Below, one piece after another: positions 32,079 through 40,820 of a DNA stretch of 64,000 bases. The translations under genes were made by a program, and so were the position numbers. The DNA lies in contig NZ_JAFVMH010000001.1 of NCBI RefSeq assembly GCF_017377735.1, positions 248,001 to 312,000 of the forward strand, read 5' to 3'. Each line of letters begins with the position of its first letter. The first letter of the stretch is position 1. The notes beneath the pieces are model-generated. The model saw nothing but the letters and a program-made list of their open reading frames with translations. It was not told the DNA's origin and searched no databases. This DNA comes from Acetobacter garciniae (lineage in GTDB: Bacteria > Pseudomonadota > Alphaproteobacteria > Acetobacterales > Acetobacteraceae).

Positions 32079-32987
32079 ATGCCCGATGTCACGCAGTCGC
32101 CACAGAGTTTTTACACAACCCCGCAAGGGCTTGCCAGCGTCAGCCAGGTGGCGGACGCGATGGTGCGGATCTGGCCGGGTCTGGGCGGGCTGTCCGTCCT
32201 GGGGGTGGGGAATGCGGCACCCTACCTGTTCCGTCTGGGTGATTCCGGCACGCGCCGCATTGCCGCATGGACCGCCTGGGATGCGAACACGGACATGCCG
32301 CCGGCTTGCCCCGTTCCGGCCTGCATTGCCGATGAATGCGGCCTGCCCTTCCAGGATGGGGAATTCGACCGGCTTGTGCTGGTGCATGCGTTGGGCGCCA
32401 GGGCCAATCCGCTGCCCGTCCTGCGGGAGGCCAGCCGGGTCATGAAGGATGACGGGCGGCTGCTTCTTGTCATCCCCAGTCGCCTTGCGGGGCGGGCCAG
32501 GCTGCGCAAAACCCCTTTCGGGGCGGATGCGGCATTTACGCGCGGCGGGGTCAGGCAGGTGCTGGCCGCCGCCATGCTGCGCCCCGAACGCTGGGATGAA
32601 GCCCTGTTCCTGCCCGTCAGGCCGGGTGCCGGCGCTGGGCGGGGTGGCGTTCTGCCATCCCTGATGGCGCGGCTGGGGGGTGGGTCGTCCACGCATCGTC
32701 GCCTGTCGGTCGATCGGATCGGCAGGATCGTGTGTCCCGGGGCGGGAAGCCTGATTCTGGTCGAAGCCGTGCGCGATGTCTATTTCGCACAGCCCGTAAC
32801 ATCGGGCAGGCGCGGGCGGCGCTGGTTCTCCCGCGTTGTGCTGCCCGCAGCGGGTACCGCGCGGCAGGGAGCGCAGGATGATCTGGCACACGGGCCCAGA
32901 CGGCTTGGGCCCACACGGCTTGGCCTTGAACGGCATGGGCTCGCGCAGCATGGGGCTGAACAGATTGCCATGAACCCCCACGCATGA
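32079..32987 (+). CDS. Class I SAM-dependent methyltransferase, function unknown
   Basis: 302-residue protein with a Rossmann methyltransferase fold. The SAM-binding glycine motif is SVLGVGNAAPYLF. The post-II region is LPFQDGEFDRLVLVHALG, as in type 11 methyltransferases, followed by VMKDDGRLLLVIPSR. The C-terminal third is basic and low in predicted structure. It is divergent from gloB. Its TGA (32985-32987) overlaps an ATG at 32987 in the frame of the downstream hydrogenase-like gene (TGATG), suggesting that coupling once existed. The substrate cannot be inferred. Confidence 0.82.
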   Translation: MPDVTQSPQSFYTTPQGLASVSQVADAMVRIWPGLGGLSVLGVGNAAPYLFRLGDSGTRRIAAWTAWDANTDMPPACPVPACIADECGLPFQDGEFDRLVLVHALGARANPLPVLREASRVMKDDGRLLLVIPSRLAGRARLRKTPFGADAAFTRGGVRQVLAAAMLRPERWDEALFLPVRPGAGAGRGGVLPSLMARLGGGSSTHRRLSVDRIGRIVCPGAGSLILVEAVRDVYFAQPVTSGRRGRRWFSRVVLPAAGTARQGAQDDLAHGPRRLGPTRLGLERHGLAQHGAEQIAMNPHA

Positions 32988-33076
32988 TGTTATCGAAGGG
33001 CATGTGGCGGTTTTTTGTGTTGGCAGGGTAGGGCGGTTTCATTCTGGTTTCTTTTGTCACATGTGGTCTGCTGCTT

Positions 33077-35107
33077 GTGCTGGGCGCGCTGGGTATCCTG
33101 TGCGTGCTGCCGCCATCCCTTGCAGGCACGACGCGCCCCTGGCTTGCCGTCTTGCTGCGGCCCGGACTGGCGGGCGGCCTGTGGGGGCTTGCGGGCATAG
33201 GCGCCCTGGCGGGTGCCGTGTTCGGGCTTGCGGGCGCGCCGGACTGGTTCCCCGTCTTCGGGCTGGATGGTCCGGCACTTCCCATGCTGGTGCTGCTGGC
33301 CTTTATTGGTATCTGCGCCGGGGGCCTGCAAGGCGGAATGCGACCCCGGCAGCATGGAATAATTCAGCCGGCGGGGCAGTTTTCGGGCCAATCCCTGGCG
33401 CAGCCCCTGGAACAAGCAACGCATCACGCGCCGGGCGACGGGCCGGTTCAGCAGGGGGACCAGCCATGGAGCGACTCTGTGGCCCAGGCCCGGCCCATGG
33501 TGCAGCCATATGGCCAGCCACAGGAAGGCGTGCCATCCACGGGACCGGGGCAAGGCGGGGCGCATGGCCTGGCCTGCGTGCTGGCCGGGTTCGCCTTTCT
33601 TGCTTTATCGCCACTTGTGTTCGGTCTTTTCGCCGCCATGGCGCTGGCCCTGCTGGACGGGCGGGGCAGGCGCGCGCTGTGGCTGCCTTTTGCCGTGCTG
33701 CCGGTCTGCATTTCGGCCGATAATATCCTTTCCGTCCCGCTGCTGTGCCTCAGCCTTGTGCAGACCGGCTGGGCGGTGTCGGTCCAGAAGGGGCCCGTGG
33801 CCCTGCTGCCCGCCTGTATCGGGCTGTTCCTGCTGGGGCGTATCCTGGCGGAAATGGGGATGTTGCCGGTGGGGGAGACGGCGGTGCTCCTGGCGTGCGG
33901 GGCGTGGGTGGCCCTGCGCGGCTGCCTGCGGGCGCTGGGTGAACGTTCGGTGCAGGCCATGCTCGGCGGCTTTGCCGCGGCCTGGTATGGCGGGCTGGTG
34001 ATCGACCTTGTGCTGGCCCTGACATCCGCCCTGGACGGCGCGGATGCCTTTCGCATGGCGGTGGAACTGGGTATGGGCGCACCCCTTCTGGCGTTGCTGG
34101 CTGTGCAGTTTCTGGCCGCCCGGCTGGCAGGCGGGTCTTTCGCGGCAGGCGGGGCGGGCGCGGTCGGTATGGCGGGGCGCGGTGGGCGTGTCTTGGCCGG
34201 GCTGTGCCTTTGCCAGCTTTCGGCGGCCCCGCCCTTTGGCATTTTTGCAGTTTTGTGGAGCCTGCTGCTGGCGGGGGATTATTCCGTGCAGGGGGCCAGG
34301 CCCGTGGTGGCGGTGGGCGTGGTTGTGCTCCTTGCCTTCCAGGCCGGGGTGATCGTGCTGGCAAGCCTCGGCCTGCTGCGGGCCGGGCTGCAACTGGTCC
34401 TGCCCCCCGCCGACACATCGGCCGCGCGCGAAACACTGTCTTTTACCCCTGTCCGGGCTGGCCCGGCCGGGGCGTTCGCATGGCCTGGCTGGATCTGTGC
34501 CGGGGCGGCGGGCCTTGTCTCGGCCTTTCCGGGTGTGTGGCTGTTCGTCGCGGGCCCCATGGTCGCCCCCACCGCCATGGGGGATGAGCCACTTCCCCTG
34601 ACAGTGGGGAGCAGTTTTGTCGTGCGTCTGGCCCAGGGGGAAAGCCAGCTTACGCCGCTGCTGGTGCTGGCCGCCATGCTGGGCGCGGTCGCCGTGGCGG
34701 CTGTGCTGGTGCGGGCGTTGGGGTTTGTTCCGTTCGGGCAGGGTGTCGTACGCGTGCCGTTCTGGCGGCAGGGGGCCCCCCTTTCTTCCGACGGGCCCGG
34801 CGAAGGCCAGGGCGCATCCGTCATGCCGCTATGGCCCGCGGTCATGGGGTTGAGCGGCATGGATACGGGCCGTGGCACGATTGCAGTTACTATGCCGGGC
34901 ATGATTGCGGGTACGGTTTCAGGCAGGGGCGGGCGGCATGCGCGCAGGGCCCCCGCGCGCGATGTCGCCCGGCGGGGCAGGGTGATGGCGCGCTCCCTGC
35001 GGCGCCTGGTTTTTCGTTATACGCAATGGTGCGAAAGCCAGGGCATGGTGCTGGTCGTGCTGCTGCTGGGGCTGGGTTTGCTGGTGGGGCTGTTTGTGGG
35101 AACATGA
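33077..35107 (+). CDS. HyfB/HycC-like antiporter subunit of an Ehr-type complex
   Basis: 676 residues if started at GTG 33077, with about 14 predicted TM helices. It resembles the NuoL/HyfB proton-translocating family. The start is abnormal. An ATG at 32987 overlaps the upstream stop (TGATG), but its frame meets TAG at 33029-33031 and then continues through hydrophobic codons into this ORF. GTG 33077 has no ribosome site. The signature after TM7, normally with a lysine, reads RALGERSVQAMLGGFAAAWY, so the channel Lys is not seen. Two hydrophilic insertions stand out: Gln/Pro-rich (about residues 85-160) and Gly/Arg-rich near the C-terminus. It is the first gene of a six-gene cluster. Confidence 0.78.
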   Translation: MLGALGILCVLPPSLAGTTRPWLAVLLRPGLAGGLWGLAGIGALAGAVFGLAGAPDWFPVFGLDGPALPMLVLLAFIGICAGGLQGGMRPRQHGIIQPAGQFSGQSLAQPLEQATHHAPGDGPVQQGDQPWSDSVAQARPMVQPYGQPQEGVPSTGPGQGGAHGLACVLAGFAFLALSPLVFGLFAAMALALLDGRGRRALWLPFAVLPVCISADNILSVPLLCLSLVQTGWAVSVQKGPVALLPACIGLFLLGRILAEMGMLPVGETAVLLACGAWVALRGCLRALGERSVQAMLGGFAAAWYGGLVIDLVLALTSALDGADAFRMAVELGMGAPLLALLAVQFLAARLAGGSFAAGGAGAVGMAGRGGRVLAGLCLCQLSAAPPFGIFAVLWSLLLAGDYSVQGARPVVAVGVVVLLAFQAGVIVLASLGLLRAGLQLVLPPADTSAARETLSFTPVRAGPAGAFAWPGWICAGAAGLVSAFPGVWLFVAGPMVAPTAMGDEPLPLTVGSSFVVRLAQGESQLTPLLVLAAMLGAVAVAAVLVRALGFVPFGQGVVRVPFWRQGAPLSSDGPGEGQGASVMPLWPAVMGLSGMDTGRGTIAVTMPGMIAGTVSGRGGRHARRAPARDVARRGRVMARSLRRLVFRYTQWCESQGMVLVVLLLGLGLLVGLFVGT

Positions 35108-35153
35108 GAGAGGAACCGCAAGGGCGCCACCAGGGTGCCGACAGGATAAAGAC

Positions 35154-36188
35154 ATGGCGCTGAAGGCAGGCTGGATCGTGGCCTGGCTGTTCGCATTGGC
35201 CGTGCAGGCGGGGCTTATGGTGGTGCTGGCCCCCTGGTTCGCCGGGCTGTGCGAACGCCTGGCAGGGCGTGTCAGCGGGCGGCAGCGCTTCCATGCAGGG
35301 GCAGGCTGGCCCGAAATCCACCATCAGGCCCGCAGGCCGGTCCTGCGCGGCCCGGCCGATGCGCTGAATGGCGTGTTCTGTTTTTCCGCACTGGTCCTGG
35401 CGGTCCTGGCCTGCGGGCTGGTGCCGGTGTTTGCCCTGACACCCCCGGGTTTTCCCGCCCCCGGCCTGCTGCTGGTGTGCTGCGTGCTGGTTGTGGCCAT
35501 GCTGCTGCTTGACCTGCCGCTGGCCGTGCAGGGCGGGTTGGGGGCCTATCCCGGCAGTGCCGCCCTGCTGGGCAATGCGCTGCTGCTGCCCGTTCTTTGC
35601 CCGGTCATGCTGCTGGCGGGCACGCAGGACCTGTCCACCTTTCTGGCGGGTCTTGCCCCGCTTTCCCCCCTGCGGGACGGCGCACCCTACGTGCTGGCGG
35701 GTGTCGCCCTGTTCGTGGTGACAGCCCTGTCCGCCCAGGGGGCGGAGCGCGAAGCCGTGGCAGCACCCCTGGCGGGGCCGGACAGGGCCATGTGGCTGCT
35801 GGCGGCGGATTGCGTTCAGCTTTGCTGGGTCAGCCTGGCAGCGGATGTGGCGTGGTCGGCAAGCCTGGCCGGTGTGCCGGGGCAGAATGGGGGGGGCGCC
35901 GGCGGGCAGGGCGTGGGGCCGTGGCTGCTGCAATGTGCCGAAGGGGCCGGTCTGTGGCTGGGCAAGCTGGTGGTGGCCGCAGTCATTCTCGCACTCGGGC
36001 GGCTGGTTGTGCTGCCGGCCCTGCGCCGCATACGAATCAGGCTTGGGGTGGTTTTTCTCCTGGGTGCGTTGGCCTGGCAGGTGACATGGGCGCTGGCCCC
36101 CCAGCCCGTCATGCAGGAAAGCGAGGGCGCCGCACCCGTTCCCGCAGCATCGGACCGCGTGCCCGACGGCCAGGGGGGCCTGTCATGA
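35154..36188 (+). CDS. HyfC/HycD-like (NuoH-like) membrane subunit
   Basis: 344-residue membrane protein of the NuoH/HycD family. In these complexes it forms the membrane anchor next to the Fe-S small subunit. The family landmark GPADALNG follows a loop with GAGWPEIHHQARRPVLRG. About eight TM helices are predicted. A Gly-rich insertion (GQNGGGAGGQG) interrupts a late loop. The start ATG 35154 has AGGA upstream, 46 bp after the preceding stop. Its own TGA overlaps the next ATG (36185-36188). The acidic residues in TM loops seen in classical HycD are sparse. Confidence 0.82.
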   Translation: MALKAGWIVAWLFALAVQAGLMVVLAPWFAGLCERLAGRVSGRQRFHAGAGWPEIHHQARRPVLRGPADALNGVFCFSALVLAVLACGLVPVFALTPPGFPAPGLLLVCCVLVVAMLLLDLPLAVQGGLGAYPGSAALLGNALLLPVLCPVMLLAGTQDLSTFLAGLAPLSPLRDGAPYVLAGVALFVVTALSAQGAEREAVAAPLAGPDRAMWLLAADCVQLCWVSLAADVAWSASLAGVPGQNGGGAGGQGVGPWLLQCAEGAGLWLGKLVVAAVILALGRLVVLPALRRIRIRLGVVFLLGALAWQVTWALAPQPVMQESEGAAPVPAASDRVPDGQGGLS

Positions 36189-37492
36189 CGCTTGCTGCCA
36201 TGATCGCGCAGTTGCTTGCCCTGGGCATGGTGGTGTGGGGCATGGGTTTCCTGCCCGCCCTGGGTGTCGCCAGTGCCGCAGCAATGCTTCTGGGCAACCC
36301 CGATCCCGTGTGTGAGGCAGCATCCGGCCTGGCCGTGCTGATCGGCGTTCTGCCGCTGGTGTTTCTGAGCCGCTACCAGCCCGATCTCTCGCGCGAAAGC
36401 CCGCGGCCCGCGGTGCCGTTCGTGGCCCTTGGGCTGATGGTGCTGTTGCAGTTCACCACCATGCGCGCGGGCGTTGCGGGTTTTCCGGCCGGGCTGTGCA
36501 TGGCCCTGGCCGGTCTTGTGGCAGTCGCCTGCCGCCAGACACTGGTATGGCAATGGGCGGGGGTGCTGACCTGTGGTGAAGGGGTGCTGCTGTTCGCAAC
36601 CCAGACCCGGCAGGCCGAGGTTATGGGCGTGGCGGCCCTGGCCTGCGTGATCGTGCTGGTATTTGGCGGGTTCTGCGCGCACCGTACGTTACTGCGCAAG
36701 GTCGCAAGCCCGGACACCCGTCCCCCGCCCATGCCCCCGCCGCGCACCGGCACGCCCCACCCGGATGCCGCGCCCTACCATGCGCCCGACCTATCTGCGC
36801 GCGCCGAACAGGGCAGCAACCAGCCCATGAACCCGTCCGCGCCCGGCTGGAGGAACTCACAGCCCCCCGAAGGACGGGTCGAGGACGAGCAGGCCTCCGT
36901 CCCACTCGCCAGCCAGGACAGGGCGAGTGGTGAGGAAGACTTTTCGCCGCCGGAAGAGTGGACGAAGGGCGAGTCCAACCCGGTCTCATCCGCCAGCCCG
37001 GATATGGCAGGTGGTGACGATGAGTTTTCCGGACTGAGAGGATGGACGCGGGGCGAACATGACCCCATCCCACCCGTCAGCCCGGATAGGGCGAGTAGTG
37101 ACGAAGAATTTTCCCGGCCGGAAGGATGGGCGCAAGGTGAATACGACCCTGCCTCGCCCTCCCGCCTGGATAGGGCGGATGGTAACGAAAGCCGGCCGGG
37201 GCCGAAAGAACAGGCGCAGGGCGATGCTGCCACGGCCCAGCCCTGGCATGGTGCGCAAAGCCCGGCCCCGAACCCGGCCCCGGCAGAGGCTGCGCGCGCT
37301 GAACCGGCACAGGGCAACCCATGGGGCCATCCCCATGACATATCCGGCGATACGGCTCGTGAGACATCTCCGGGGGCATCCCCAGCAGCACCCCCGCAAG
37401 CACCCCCACAGGCATCCCATCACGCAGCGCGCAATCAAGCATGGGATTCCACGCGGGATGAACCATCGGCCGGGGCGGGGGAGCACGCATGA
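36185..37492 (+). CDS. HyfE-like (NuoK-like) subunit with a long repeat-bearing tail
   Basis: 435 residues. Residues 1-170 have about six TM helices, matching HyfE of hydrogenase-4. From about 175 the protein becomes hydrophilic for 260 residues, a tail E. coli HyfE lacks. Residues 223-334 form four 28-residue repeats, with EDFSPPEEW (251), DEFSGLRGW (279) and EEFSRPEGW (307) in step; a partial fifth follows. The last ~90 residues are Pro/Ala/His-rich. It overlaps both neighbours by ATGA. The tail is predicted disordered and acidic; its role is unknown. Confidence 0.8.
   Translation: MTLAAMIAQLLALGMVVWGMGFLPALGVASAAAMLLGNPDPVCEAASGLAVLIGVLPLVFLSRYQPDLSRESPRPAVPFVALGLMVLLQFTTMRAGVAGFPAGLCMALAGLVAVACRQTLVWQWAGVLTCGEGVLLFATQTRQAEVMGVAALACVIVLVFGGFCAHRTLLRKVASPDTRPPPMPPPRTGTPHPDAAPYHAPDLSARAEQGSNQPMNPSAPGWRNSQPPEGRVEDEQASVPLASQDRASGEEDFSPPEEWTKGESNPVSSASPDMAGGDDEFSGLRGWTRGEHDPIPPVSPDRASSDEEFSRPEGWAQGEYDPASPSRLDRADGNESRPGPKEQAQGDAATAQPWHGAQSPAPNPAPAEAARAEPAQGNPWGHPHDISGDTARETSPGASPAAPPQAPPQASHHAARNQAWDSTRDEPSAGAGEHA
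36851..37186 (+). repeat. Four 84-bp tandem repeats inside the hyfE-like gene
   Basis: The repeats encode the 28-residue units described for the HyfE-like tail. The 84-bp period keeps the frame. Copies 2-4 are the most alike; the first and the partial fifth are more diverged, consistent with an older expansion. Confidence 0.85.
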
Positions 37493-38712
37493 TCGCGGGT
37501 TTGCAGATAACCGTTTTCCTGGCCGCGCTGGCGTTTGTCTGGCCCTTTGTCGGGGCGGTTATCGTATGCGTGGTTACGGCCCCGCGCGCGCGGGATGTCG
37601 CCTTGTGGATGGCGGGCATAGGCTGTGCGCTGGCCATGGCGGTTTTCGTCTTTCCCGCCAGCGGGGGGGCATCCGCCGGGTGGGACGATGATCCGGTGCA
37701 GCGGGCGGGGCGGGTAATGCTGGCCTTCGGGCTGTTGCTGAATGTGCTGGACTACGCCCCGGCACTGGCACAGGACCGGCTTTTGCGCACCTTGCCCCAT
37801 ATCTCCACCGCCTTGGCGGGGCTGGCCTGCGTTGCCGCCAACCCCGCGATCGGGCTTGGAATCGTCCAGGTGGCGCTGGCCTGGGGGGTGTTCGTGCTGG
37901 CCCGCAGGCCGGGGCAGGCCATGGCGGGCTGGGCGCTTGTTCGCGCGGGTTCGGTGGGCACGTTCCTTGCCCTGTCGGGGCTGATGCTGCCGGCAGGCAC
38001 GCTGGGGGGCGGGCTGATGATGGCCTGCGGCCTGTCGGTCCTGGCTGGGCTTGCGTTTTTCGGTCCTTCCTGGCGGGATGCGAACAGTCCGCTGCTGTTC
38101 GTGCCGCTGGCCGGGGCGGCCCTGTTGCTGGCCATGCGCATGCGCACCCATGGCGGCATGGCGTTCGAAGCCGCATTGGTTGCGGCGGGCCTGCTGTGTC
38201 TGTGGCTTACGGCCTGCTCGTCCCGCCTGGCGCAGCGGTGGCACCTGCTGCGCAGTTTCCCGCTGGCGCTGGGGGTCATGGCCGTGGGTGTCGGGGCCGA
38301 TGTCGCGGCCCTGCTCTTTCTGTGCGGCTGGTGCCTGGCGGGCGGCGGCCGGGCGGGGCAGGGCTGGGCGGTTCGCGCCGTGACGTGTTTTCCACCCGGC
38401 GCACCCTTTGTGGGCTGCCTGCTTCTGCTTTCGGTCATGGCGGACTGGTCCTGGCTGGTGGCGGTGCTGAGCGTGGCGGGTGTCCTGATTTGTCTCGCAC
38501 GGGCCATGCCGGCCCATGTGGGAAAGGAACGGAGGACCGGGCCGATGGATGGTTCATCCTTCCGTGGTGATTCCAATGCCCCCGTCAATGCATCGGGCAA
38601 CGGGCTGGGCTATCGGTTCTGGCCCGATGATCCGGCGGGGCGGCTGGCCTGCGCGGTGCTGACCGCCATGGGGCTTGTCGCCCCGCTGGCCATGATGCTG
38701 GGGGCGTTCTGA
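37489..38712 (+). CDS. HyfF-like antiporter subunit, shortened
   Basis: 407-residue membrane protein in the HyfF (NuoM/N-like) position and with similar hydrophobicity. Classical HyfF has about 520 residues, so this copy is short. The usual D-x-K-x-x-LAYS motif with channel lysine is replaced by SRLAQRWHLLRSFPLALGVM. A hydrophilic insertion (about residues 345-385, with GKERRTGPMDGSSF) precedes the last TM helix. The start overlaps the HyfE-like stop (37489-37492) and its TGA overlaps the next ATG (38710-38712). The assignment depends on gene order as much as on sequence. Confidence 0.72.
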   Translation: MIAGLQITVFLAALAFVWPFVGAVIVCVVTAPRARDVALWMAGIGCALAMAVFVFPASGGASAGWDDDPVQRAGRVMLAFGLLLNVLDYAPALAQDRLLRTLPHISTALAGLACVAANPAIGLGIVQVALAWGVFVLARRPGQAMAGWALVRAGSVGTFLALSGLMLPAGTLGGGLMMACGLSVLAGLAFFGPSWRDANSPLLFVPLAGAALLLAMRMRTHGGMAFEAALVAAGLLCLWLTACSSRLAQRWHLLRSFPLALGVMAVGVGADVAALLFLCGWCLAGGGRAGQGWAVRAVTCFPPGAPFVGCLLLLSVMADWSWLVAVLSVAGVLICLARAMPAHVGKERRTGPMDGSSFRGDSNAPVNASGNGLGYRFWPDDPAGRLACAVLTAMGLVAPLAMMLGAF

Positions 38713-40211
38713 TGACTGCGGCCTCCCTGATCCGCGCGGGCGCGCAAACGGCCACGCCCTGGCGCTTCGAACTGGACGAACTGGGCTGGCGCGACATGGT
38801 GGCAGCCCTTGCCCATGATCACGACAGCCTGCCCTTTGCCGGGCTGTGGTGCGACGGTGTATGTGTCCATGCCCTGTTCCTGCCCCATGGCCAGCCTCTG
38901 GCCGCGACCCTGGCGCTGGACGACGGGCGCTATCCCGCCCTGTCGCCCGCCCGGCCGGTCTCCGCCTTTTACGAACGGGCGATTTACGACCTGTACGGCG
39001 CCGAGGCCATGTGGGCGGTCGATGTCCGCCCCCTGCTGGACCATGACGTGTGGCTGAACACCGCCCCACTTTCCCCCACACCCGGCATGGCGGGCACGCA
39101 TAAGGGGCTGGTGCGCTTCCAGCCTGCCGAGGGCCTGCATGCGGATGGGGCGCAAAGGGATGGTTGGGGGCCTGCCACGGGTGGCATGGGCTCGCCCTTT
39201 CATGTGGGGCTGGCGGTATCCGGAGGGCGCGTGCTGGGTGCGCAAAGCCAGACCGGCTATGCGCATCGGGGCCTGGCCCTGCGCTGGCGCGGCAGCACGG
39301 TGGAGCAGGCCGCCCGCCTGAGCAGCCGCGTGGCCGCGCGGTGTTCCCTGGCGCACCAGGTGGCGTTTTCCTGGGCGGTGGAAGCAGCCTGCGGGCACGC
39401 GGCCGGAGTGCCGGCCGAGCATGCACGCGTGGCGTTGCTGGAGATCGAACGGATCGGCCACCATCTTTACACATTGGCCGATGTCGCGGGGCTGGCGGGG
39501 GCGGATTTGCCCGCATCGCGCTGCATGATGCTGCGTGAGCGCATTCTGGCCGACGTGGCCCCCATTGTCGGCTCGCGCCTGCTGATGGACACCTGCGTGC
39601 CCGGCGGGGTCAGGGTGAAACAGATGGCGCAGATGGCGGAATTATGCAGCCTTGTGCCCGATATCGCCCGGCCCGGCCTTGCCGAACTGAACCAGCTCTG
39701 GCGGGACTACCCCGGTCTTGCCACGCGCCTGGCGGGGCTTGGTACCCCTGCGGCCGAGGTCCTGGACCGCACGGGGCTGGATGGTCCCGTCGCCCGGGCG
39801 GCAGGGCGGGATTGCGACGTACGGCGCGGCCTTCCCGCTTATGAGGGGCTGTGGCGCTATACGGCGGGCCCGCAGCACGGCACGGCGCAGGACCGGGCCC
39901 TGCTGCTGCTCGATGAGATCGCGGAAAGTCTTGGCATGCTGGACAGGCTGGCGGGGCGGATGGGGCCCATAAGCGGGCCCGGTACGCTGAGCCTGCGCGA
40001 CGGGGAAGGCACGGCCCGGGTAGAAGGACCATGGGGCAGTATTGCGTATTGGGTGCGCCTGCATGAAGGCCGCGTGGCGCAGGTTTTTTACCACACCCCC
40101 GAACCGGCCACGCTGATGCTGTTCGAAGATACGCTGCGCGGATGTGCGGCGGACGATATTGCCCTGCTGGCAAGCTCGCTCGGGGTGGAGGTTGCGGCAC
40201 AGGATGGCTAG
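38712..40211 (+). CDS. HyfG/NuoCD-like large subunit without nickel-site cysteines
   Basis: 499 residues. The first ~130 resemble the NuoC (30 kDa) part (FYERAIYDLYGAEAMW) and the rest the NuoD/hydrogenase large-subunit part. The HRG motif is present (GYAHRGLALRW, 185-187). Where group 4 hydrogenases have a CxxC, this reads SSRVAARCSLAHQ: only Cys211 remains. The C-terminal DPCxxC motif is missing and the protein ends in EVAAQDG. It therefore cannot bind a normal NiFe centre. This is the defining trait of Ehr complexes and complex I. It is coupled to the HyfF-like gene by TGATG overlap. Confidence 0.85.
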   Translation: MTAASLIRAGAQTATPWRFELDELGWRDMVAALAHDHDSLPFAGLWCDGVCVHALFLPHGQPLAATLALDDGRYPALSPARPVSAFYERAIYDLYGAEAMWAVDVRPLLDHDVWLNTAPLSPTPGMAGTHKGLVRFQPAEGLHADGAQRDGWGPATGGMGSPFHVGLAVSGGRVLGAQSQTGYAHRGLALRWRGSTVEQAARLSSRVAARCSLAHQVAFSWAVEAACGHAAGVPAEHARVALLEIERIGHHLYTLADVAGLAGADLPASRCMMLRERILADVAPIVGSRLLMDTCVPGGVRVKQMAQMAELCSLVPDIARPGLAELNQLWRDYPGLATRLAGLGTPAAEVLDRTGLDGPVARAAGRDCDVRRGLPAYEGLWRYTAGPQHGTAQDRALLLLDEIAESLGMLDRLAGRMGPISGPGTLSLRDGEGTARVEGPWGSIAYWVRLHEGRVAQVFYHTPEPATLMLFEDTLRGCAADDIALLASSLGVEVAAQDG

Positions 40212-40298
40212 GCAGGAAAAAATGGTGGCCGGCAGGATGACAGGGCAACTGGCGGGGGCGCCACCCGATCGGGCGTGTTCCTGCGGGGGAGGTTGGGC

Positions 40299-40820
40299 AT
40301 GGGGTTGATGCGCGCGGTCTTCGACATGGCCTTTCGCCCCGGTATGCAGCGCATGAAACCGCAGGGGCCGGGCTGGCCGGTCAGGCTGTTCCATATCGAT
40401 ACGGGCGGGTGCGGCGGCTGCGGGATGGAGCTTCAGGCCCTGTCCTGCGCACCGTTTGACATGCAGGGGGCGGGTTTCGGCTTTGTACACAGCCCCCGCA
40501 ATGCCGACATGCTGGTCGTGACCGGCCCGCTGACCCGCGCCATGGCCCCGGTCGTGCAAGCCGCGTGGGAGGCCATGCCAGCCCCCAGGGGCCTTGTCTG
40601 CGTGGGGGCCTGCGCGCTCGATGGCGGGATGTTCGGTGAAAACTATGCCGTCATGGGCGGGCTTGAGCGCCGCGTGTCCATCGACCTGGCAATTCCGGGC
40701 TGCCCGCCCACACCGATGGATGTGCTGGACGGCCTGCGCAGCCTGTTCCGCCCGCCCGTTCCAGCCCCGGATACACAGGGCGGTGTGGCCGCAGGCGGTG
40801 CGGATGGCGCAGGGGGCTAG
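40299..40820 (+). CDS. HyfI/NuoB-like Fe-S small subunit
   Basis: 173-residue small subunit. The [4Fe-4S] ligands of the N2-type cluster are present: Cys38 and Cys41 in DTGGCGGCGMELQ, Cys105 in CVGACALDGG and Cys135 in IPGCPPTP. It can therefore still carry electrons even though the large subunit lacks nickel ligands. GGGGGAGG precedes ATG 40299; an upstream GTG (40275) is less likely. It ends the cluster, 16 bp before the convergent pssA stop. No ferredoxin-like HyfA/HyfH partner is in the window. Confidence 0.87.
   Translation: MGLMRAVFDMAFRPGMQRMKPQGPGWPVRLFHIDTGGCGGCGMELQALSCAPFDMQGAGFGFVHSPRNADMLVVTGPLTRAMAPVVQAAWEAMPAPRGLVCVGACALDGGMFGENYAVMGGLERRVSIDLAIPGCPPTPMDVLDGLRSLFRPPVPAPDTQGGVAAGGADGAGG

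Follow-up and report, generated by a model that had tools for sequence, protein, structure and literature searches.

Organisation of the operon

The window analysed here is a 64,000-nucleotide stretch of the Acetobacter garciniae genome (contig NZ_JAFVMH010000001.1, positions 248,001 to 312,000). At about 33041-40820 it carries an intact operon of six consecutive plus-strand reading frames in the order B-C-E-F-G-I, named after their hydrogenase-4 (Hyf) and Hyq counterparts. The four membrane subunits come first: HyfB/HyqB-like (33041-35107), HyfC/HyqC (NuoH)-like (35154-36188), HyfE/HyqE-like (36185-37492) and HyfF/HyqF-like (37489-38712). They are followed by a HyfG/HyqG-like large subunit, a NuoC-NuoD fusion (38712-40211), and a HyfI/HyqI (NuoB)-like small subunit with four [4Fe-4S] cysteines (40275-40820). 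HyfC has an alternative start at TTG 35094, and HyfI begins at GTG 40275, with other starts possible.

The C/E and E/F junctions are ATGA overlaps (36185 and 37489), F and G meet in TGATG (38710), and a 63-nt gap separates G from I. The 4-nt overlaps are conserved in the genus: among Acetobacter loci with both genes, they are found at C/E in 25/29 and at E/F in 23/29. Third-position GC is 0.72-0.82 across the six genes, and in E it is not above that of the first position. No NuoI/HyfH-type gene was seen among the operon frames in our reading of the open reading frame list. The gene order, the three overlaps and the missing ferredoxin-type subunit had all been described in an earlier note, made from the letters of the DNA, and these descriptions are confirmed.

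The same note had placed the start of the first gene at 32987, the position at which a methyltransferase gene ends, about 50 nt upstream of the HyfB frame. That start is impossible because an in-frame TAG (33029-33031) closes its frame and cuts the conserved HyfB frame off from the ATG codons further upstream. Of the listed starts GTG 33077 comes first, and a rarer codon near 33041 is possible. By our reading, the residues right after the TAG already resemble the N-termini of other Acetobacter B proteins; the true start is therefore GTG 33077 or a rarer codon upstream of it. As judged from the frame, the predicted HyfB must use a non-ATG start or have an N-terminal change.

Two of the membrane subunits contain unusual hydrophilic segments. 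In HyfB, an insert of ~75 residues (about residues 82-160; 33320-33555) is specific to the window protein and absent in the nine other Acetobacter proteins aligned with it. In HyfE, the first ~175 residues form the membrane subunit and are followed by a C-terminal tail of ~260 residues with acidic repeats, encoded in part by an 84-bp tandem repeat of 3.5 copies with 71% matches (36900-37189). Long HyfE frames (about 400 residues) also occur in A. malorum and its near relatives.

Distribution and phylogeny

A large-subunit match at E<=1e-20 was found in 121/150 Acetobacteraceae genomes, although the weakest of these may be other group 4 relatives. Another 23 genomes have weaker matches only, such as NuoD and other relatives would give, and the remaining 6 are without a match. 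Within the genus of the window the large subunit is present in 48/49 genomes, and in all 46 of the well-completed ones. At class level the matches of 26/289 genomes are at E<=1e-100, and the best of the rest is 1.5e-62. The closest named relatives are Acetobacter loci with best segments 53-62% identical; another member of the genus reaches 63%. The window genome (G000) has one Hyq-type large subunit, and its two further matches fall on NuoD genes belonging to two complex I sets (C39:161135 and C40:41697), one of them a 616-residue frame that is probably NuoCD.

Three sets of sequences were compared, with genes in relatives called by our own script, some of whose calls are wrong. The Acetobacter set has up to 31 rows (30 for B, C and E), of which about 26 are independent, five genomes being represented twice (L001/L183, L003/L186, L005/L188, L006/L190, L008/L191); L010 and L011, whose frames are broken in draft contigs, were left out. 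The AAB (acetic acid bacteria) branch, a label of our own, comprises the family members placed together with Acetobacter by the tree. Its rows beyond Acetobacter ("other AAB") number 34 for F and G, 33 for B and I, and 26 for C and E. The outside set consists of 30 loci: 20 from the class level (19 genomes) and 10 that were picked for clean frames, before tallying, from the 18 family loci retrieved outside the AAB branch.

In an 89-row tree of the large subunit, of a quick type without bootstrap, the 85 Hyq-like large subunits formed one clade (100*). Three active enzymes (HyfG, HycE and the NiFe-type enzyme of G029) were found in a separate clade (99*). A branch (97*) set the 30 outside rows apart, the 55 AAB-branch rows held together with a Shimodaira-Hasegawa-like approximate likelihood ratio test (SH-aLRT) support of 92 that was not starred, and the main Acetobacter rows formed one group (100*). 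NuoCD, L063, L072 and L065 were found on long branches of unsure place. Acetobacter is represented in the tree by 21 of its 31 rows, ten having been dropped (duplicates, near-copies and others). A placement of the window's large subunit inside the active NiFe enzymes, which the earlier note had named as a reason to abandon its view, was thus not found. The enzyme of G029, a 1.9-Mb Acetobacteraceae genome that also has HypD, is a group 4 hydrogenase (L210 1402-7531) with RVCGIC and DPCYSC motifs.

The gene-order comparison that the note had proposed across relatives bears out the operon. All six frames are present at 29 of the 30 Acetobacter loci read, and the remaining one is cut by a contig end. 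At other AAB loci, four hydrophobic frames lie upstream of HyfG in 28/34, three in five and two in one. Some genomes, from several genera, carry the HyfI-like gene apart from the operon (L211, L212, L214; also G022, G149, G037, G085, G008 and G001); it is still present there, with four cysteines in the three that were read. In G471, a genome of the window's genus in the 1.5-1.7 Mb class, about 1.5 kb with unrelated small frames lies between HyfC and HyfE (L193 4354-5850). Outside the branch, a 0.9-Mb alphaproteobacterial genome (G317, L128; locus GC 0.34) keeps Hyq-type E, F, G and I; it has a HyfC fragment at a contig end and no NuoD match.

Identity of the subunits

Pfam and NCBIfam searches, which covered the window proteins only, matched the large subunit to Complex1_49kDa (1.2e-16) and the small subunit to Oxidored_q6 (8.6e-25). 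None of the window's B, C, E and F proteins gave a Pfam or NCBIfam match at E<=1. A profile of Acetobacter F alone likewise had no signal (5%) against outside HyfF proteins, which themselves match E. coli HyfF at 100%. When 34 AAB intermediates were included, F reached 98% against outside HyfF. With intermediates, B (33 of them) reached 99.67% against outside HyqB-like proteins, C 99.75%, and E 95.65% over 90 columns.

Foldseek searches with AlphaFold models point in the same direction for the two antiporter-like subunits. Each of the best 50 of 328 matches of F is a complex I/NDH chain, the top one at E 8.9e-3. For B, the first among the best 50 of 215 matches is formate hydrogenlyase HycC of E. 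coli (E 1.5e-3), and one unrelated cytochrome bd chain stands at rank 43; among the matches listed for B and F, none is at E<=0.001. The proposed identities of B, C, E and F are thus drawn from gene order and intermediate-linked profiles, plus the predicted fold for B and F. On these grounds the HyfB-, HyfC-, HyfE- and HyfF-like labels of the earlier note stand, although they do not emerge from a direct family search, which recovered G and I. The membrane subunits probably keep the fold.

Residues of the large and small subunits

Neither nickel-binding CxxC pair is kept in any of the 85 Hyq-like large subunits, in agreement with what had been noted for the window protein; at least one cysteine at one of the four nickel positions occurs in 10/85, the window included (C211). 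The three cysteine columns of the HyqG family, matched by spacing because the Azorhizobium sequence itself is absent from the alignment, hold Cys in 23, 24 and 25 of the 30 outside rows, in 0/21 Acetobacter rows and in 0/34 other AAB rows. The GPxH histidine is found in 30/30 outside rows, 0/21 Acetobacter rows and 1/34 other AAB rows.

Changes were also found at the canopy positions. At canopy Arg478 (HycE numbering), outside rows have Arg (30/30) and Acetobacter rows have Trp (21/21; Trp441 in the window). The canopy Asp529 position is Asn in 30/30 outside rows, and Gly in 19/21 Acetobacter rows, in 31/34 other AAB rows and in the window (Gly491). According to passages of PMC9474812, mutation of the canopy Arg or Asp impairs quinone reduction by complex I. 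The positions of HycE His284, Arg395 and Glu437 are kept in 21/21 Acetobacter rows; in the window they are His251, Arg362 and Glu402, core residues in common with active enzymes.

The small subunit keeps its cluster ligands. C46, C49, C113 and C143, the four Fe-S cysteines already seen in the first reading of the DNA, are present in the window HyfI. All four are kept in 31/31 Acetobacter, 32/33 other AAB and 29/30 outside rows.

Loss of pump residues in the membrane subunits

Outside relatives keep, in 28-30 of 30 rows, the canopy Arg, the antiporter Lys, Glu and His residues that were scored, and four E-channel positions likewise scored. In Acetobacter most of them are gone. In F, the Lys of transmembrane helix (TM) 7 (K229) became Leu or Met, H348 of TM11 became Trp and the TM12 Glu (E407) became Cys, each in 31/31 rows. 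In B, K245 (the TM8 Lys), H336 and H340 (TM11), K344 (the TM11 Lys) and E399 (the TM12 Glu) are found in 0/30 Acetobacter rows. Among the outside relatives, 29-30 of 30 have these residues of F and B. In C, the positions of HycD E130, E138 and E189 have no Glu or Asp in 30 Acetobacter rows; the position of R108 has no Arg in these rows, and Arg in 14/26 other AAB rows.

Residue composition, which is independent of alignment, shows the same trend. The median Lys count of F is 0 in Acetobacter (0-9) versus 7.5 outside (5-11), with 0-15 in other AAB. The window F has a single Lys in the whole protein, and the window B also has a single Lys, which by our reading of the alignment lies in another conserved stretch. 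Cysteines are more frequent in the membrane subunits of the AAB branch, with a median in F of 2.68% versus 0.56% outside. Five cysteines are invariant in Acetobacter F (31/31 rows). A metal site made of them was considered and dropped because each is common to at most 4/34 other AAB rows.

The loss of pump residues in Acetobacter and its nearest relatives is, as read from these alignments, what is new here. It goes beyond the earlier note, which had described neither a membrane arm that lost most of the pump residues kept by the rest of the clade nor a HyfG without the canopy residues and HyqG-family cysteines.

Selection on the six genes

All six genes are under purifying selection. In 20 pairs (one repeated: L188/L004) the ratio of nonsynonymous to synonymous substitution rates (dN/dS) was 0.01-0.37, and within the main Acetobacter set 0.01-0.26; most values fall at 0.02-0.25. 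The highest values came from a pair with dS 0.05-0.12 and a pair with dS near 1.8. In the three pairs with flanking controls, whose species pairs also occur among the 20, dN/dS was 0.026-0.076 for F, 0.084-0.118 for G, 0.045-0.067 for I, and 0.105-0.238 for B, C and E. The controls gave 0.057-0.134 (PssA), 0.023-0.059 (Psd), 0.096-0.170 (GloB), 0.079-0.186 (methyltransferase) and 0.042-0.066 (alanyl-tRNA synthetase, AlaRS; dS only 0.07 in one pair). In two of these three pairs the ratios of B, C and E exceed those of PssA, Psd and AlaRS, but they remain far below neutrality. Decay of the cluster in all relatives, the other outcome that the first reading had said would overturn it, is not what these values show. 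Selection preserves the operon, and therefore the operon probably does a job.

In eight branch genomes HyfG and HyfI are present, HyfI is the sole NuoB-family match and there is no NuoD match at 1e-90. Gluconobacter is not known to have complex I.

Neighbouring genes and hydrogenase accessory genes

The recurrent neighbours of the operon in the branch are PssA, Psd, GloB, a methyltransferase, an aminopeptidase and an aldo/keto reductase. These names, like that of AlaRS, come from our reading of the sequences, and those of GloB and the methyltransferase were checked by Pfam in the window. The aldo/keto reductase lies near or directly upstream of HyfB at 13 loci (L045, L046, L047, L055, L063, L068-L071, L073, L078-L080), two of them outside the AAB branch. 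No recurrent donor or acceptor gene was recognised beside the operon, where mostly housekeeping-type genes are found. None is recognisable within the operon either, as had been noted at the outset. A conserved neighbour as electron partner was rejected: only the housekeeping-type genes and, at 13 loci, the aldo/keto reductase were recognised. For the outside relatives, one recurrent flanking cluster was examined, that with a small helix-turn-helix (HTH) gene, which stands before B on pRL11, was called in 6/20 class-level loci and may correspond to HyqR.

The search for hydrogenase maturation genes was made with HypD. The window genome, which is 99.5% complete, has no match to HypD and none to NifD; 41/46 and 43/46 of the genomes examined have no match to HypD and NifD, respectively. 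Branch genomes with HypD are G123, G471 and G472, and those with NifD are G123 and G060. G471 and G472 are 1.5-1.7 Mb genomes of the window's genus. Since the window genome has neither HypD nor NifD, a nickel hydrogenase or H2 recycling is very unlikely there. An active NiFe enzyme was rejected on the tree, the missing ligands and the lack of HypD, and H2 recycling in the window genome on the lack of a NifD match.

What the operon may encode

The reading favoured here, with a probability of roughly 0.45, is that the six genes code for a derived and decoupled offshoot of Hyq/Ehr, a non-pumping membrane-anchored Fe-S module. It is the simplest reading because the coupling machinery and the reaction chamber were lost together while the Fe-S ligands, the scaffold, the gene order and selection persist. 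The six products would assemble into one complex. HyfG and HyfI would still form a peripheral arm, with one N2-like [4Fe-4S] cluster occupying HyfI on the HyfG scaffold. The four membrane subunits would serve as a membrane anchor, without proton translocation by the standard antiporter and E-channel route. Electrons may pass between the HyfI cluster and a partner (a soluble protein, a quinone or a small molecule) at the HyfG/HyfI/HyfC interface, and this transfer would proceed without energy conservation.

Several observations weigh against the decoupled module. Electron transfer, cluster binding and assembly are all predictions from sequence. The residues were mapped through profile alignments of ~20% identity, and the AlphaFold models (ten sequences each) are weak, with a mean predicted local distance difference test (pLDDT) score of 54.9 for F and 56.3 for B. 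The TM5 Glu and TM7 Lys of B and the TM11 Lys of F fall outside the profile alignment and were unscored. The losses are also not uniform: the TM5 Glu of F is kept in 23/31 Acetobacter rows (Gln in the window) and in 0/34 other AAB rows, the C position of HycD E206 is acidic in 14/30 Acetobacter rows, the window included, the canopy Arg is still present in 10/34 other AAB rows, and the canopy Asp is kept in 2/21 Acetobacter rows. HycD residues Y102, E201 and, mostly, E199 are missing from the outside rows, too. The loss of the canopy Arg and Asp and of the GPxH His argues against a quinone site of known type. In G100, at the base of the branch, the HyfI-like protein (L065 13084-13704) has lost three of the four Fe-S cysteines, with the frame open beside the other genes.

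This last case suits the main rival, a non-redox role, in which the complex is a membrane scaffold, sensor or regulator whose Fe-S cluster serves folding or the sensing of oxygen, iron or redox state without turnover. G100 keeps its genes with a broken ligand set, no recurrent donor or acceptor gene is recognised beside the operon, and the known reaction-site residues that were scored are lost in Acetobacter (nickel pairs, HyqG cysteines, GPxH His and canopy Arg in 0/21, canopy Asp kept in 2/21). The retention of the four cysteines in 63/64 AAB rows and of the core residues His251, Arg362 and Glu402 in 21/21 Acetobacter rows speaks against a non-redox role, which is regarded as unlikely, if worth keeping in mind. 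It is still less probable that redox chemistry remains coupled to ion transport through a pathway rebuilt from different residues. Such a pathway would fit the hydrophobic frames that persist in order upstream of HyfG (four at 28/34 other AAB loci), the place of F among the slowest-evolving subunits and its frequently kept TM5 Glu; the text available from PMC9474812 describes another route in E. coli HycC, which is without some standard pathway residues. It has to reckon with a median of 0 Lys in Acetobacter F versus 7.5 outside, and with the joint loss of the E-channel, TM8, TM11 and TM12 positions in C, B and F.

The two remaining explanations are very improbable. A nickel-free or unusual hydrogenase recycling H2, as for Azorhizobium Hyq, would be in keeping with the hyq gene set and order, with the altered H2 evolution upon hyq deletion given in excerpts of PMC2650096 and PMC3357923, and with the few branch genomes that have HypD or NifD. 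The window genome and most of the genomes examined have neither, and the three HyqG-family cysteines are absent in 55/55 AAB rows. Least credible of all is a decaying relic without function. The membrane subunits are heavily diverged, an in-frame stop lies upstream of the window HyfB and some genomes (e.g., G066) have no match; against this, dN/dS is far below 1 across the six genes, the large subunit occurs in every well-completed genome of the genus, and the six frames are present at nearly all Acetobacter loci read.

Put more broadly, the chances are about even that strong purifying selection maintains, in Acetobacter and the lineages closest to it, an assembly of the complex I superfamily without the catalytic metal site, quinone-type canopy residues and proton pathways but with its [4Fe-4S] cluster. 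It would be a non-pumping member, with a new function, of a superfamily whose other members are described as energy-converting. The complex I superfamily is usually seen as redox-to-ion-pumping machines, and this branch would separate the scaffold from the pump. It offers a natural test of the peripheral Fe-S module alone, even in genomes where no complex I match is found. A further outcome is a corrected annotation for the hydrogenase-4-like genes of Acetobacter, and the question of the role of nickel-free Hyq/Ehr complexes becomes sharper.

Comparison with known systems

The earlier note had singled out the cluster as a candidate undescribed system, and as unusual for an obligate aerobe. Neither point is supported by the literature. 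The Azorhizobium genes hyqRBCEFGI were described in 2009, and PMC2650096, PMC3357923 and PMC2930871 present their product, the "endo-hydrogenase" Hyq, as a complex I core of six subunits that is under NifA control and belongs to obligately oxidative bacteria. Orthologues are on record from further alphaproteobacteria with this way of life. The missing CxxC motifs of HyqG were pointed out in 2012, together with three other cysteines that are kept (Cys-258, 491 and 497 in A. caulinodans), in a section of PMC3357923 that is also the source for R. leguminosarum bv. viciae among the hyq carriers. The class-level large subunit L134 is 67.6% identical to that of Rhizobium johnstonii 3841 encoded on pRL11 (L215), where the cluster order is HTH-B-C-E-F-G-I. 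Strain 3841 has gone under the name R. leguminosarum bv. viciae. For the AAB variant, no publication was found in the open-access full-text literature, which is not proof of absence.

Other relatives share part of the architecture. The window operon has homologues of NuoB, NuoC/D, NuoH and NuoL/M-type subunits in common with complex I; in contrast to complex I it lacks NuoE/F/G/I, and the positions of E. coli NuoCD Tyr273 and His224, which we take to be quinone-site residues, are not conserved. A similar subunit set is found in M. tuberculosis Rv0082-Rv0087. E. coli Hyf and Hyc have homologous subunits and the same relative order of B, C, E, F, G and I, and the B fold is nearest HycC; the window, however, lacks the nickel ligands and HyfA/HyfD/HyfH, and its large subunit falls in a separate clade. 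The sulfane reductase MBS of Pyrococcus, as outlined in parts of PMC7684303, is a complex I relative with fewer nickel ligands in which the reaction takes place at the proximal [4Fe-4S] cluster, and it is a possible analogy for a cluster-based reaction. By the same partial account, MBS has three of the four cysteines, a shortened loop and ion-pumping modules, whereas the window HyfI keeps its hydrogenase-type CxxC and all four cysteines.

The closest likeness is to Hyq and Ehr. The tree and the residues uphold the original assignment to Ehr-type group 4 relatives without nickel ligands. As far as the portions of PMC6349859 at hand describe it, Ehr of Margulisbacteria and Saganbacteria is suspected to translocate ions; the window resembles it in a group 4-like large subunit without Ni/Fe ligands and in membrane subunits of antiporter type by ancestry, and differs in that these subunits have lost most of the ion-translocating residues scored. 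With Hyq (A. caulinodans AZC_4360-AZC_4355; pRL11 L215) it has in common the same six genes in the same order, a NuoC-NuoD large subunit of ~500 residues without nickel CxxC, a four-cysteine small subunit, no ferredoxin subunit and, judged through the class-level relative L134, ancestry. Unlike in Hyq, HyfB follows the upstream methyltransferase with no regulator gene in between, the operon lacks the three HyqG cysteines, the canopy Arg and Asp, the E-channel and most antiporter residues, and the link to the nif regulon and H2 recycling fails in the absence of NifD and HypD from the window genome. Because its gene order is that of Hyq, the operon is not an undescribed system, and since several of the defining features of Hyq/Ehr fail, it is classed as a divergent variant rather than a working Hyq. 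By descent, as far as its sequence indicates, it is a Hyq/Ehr complex.

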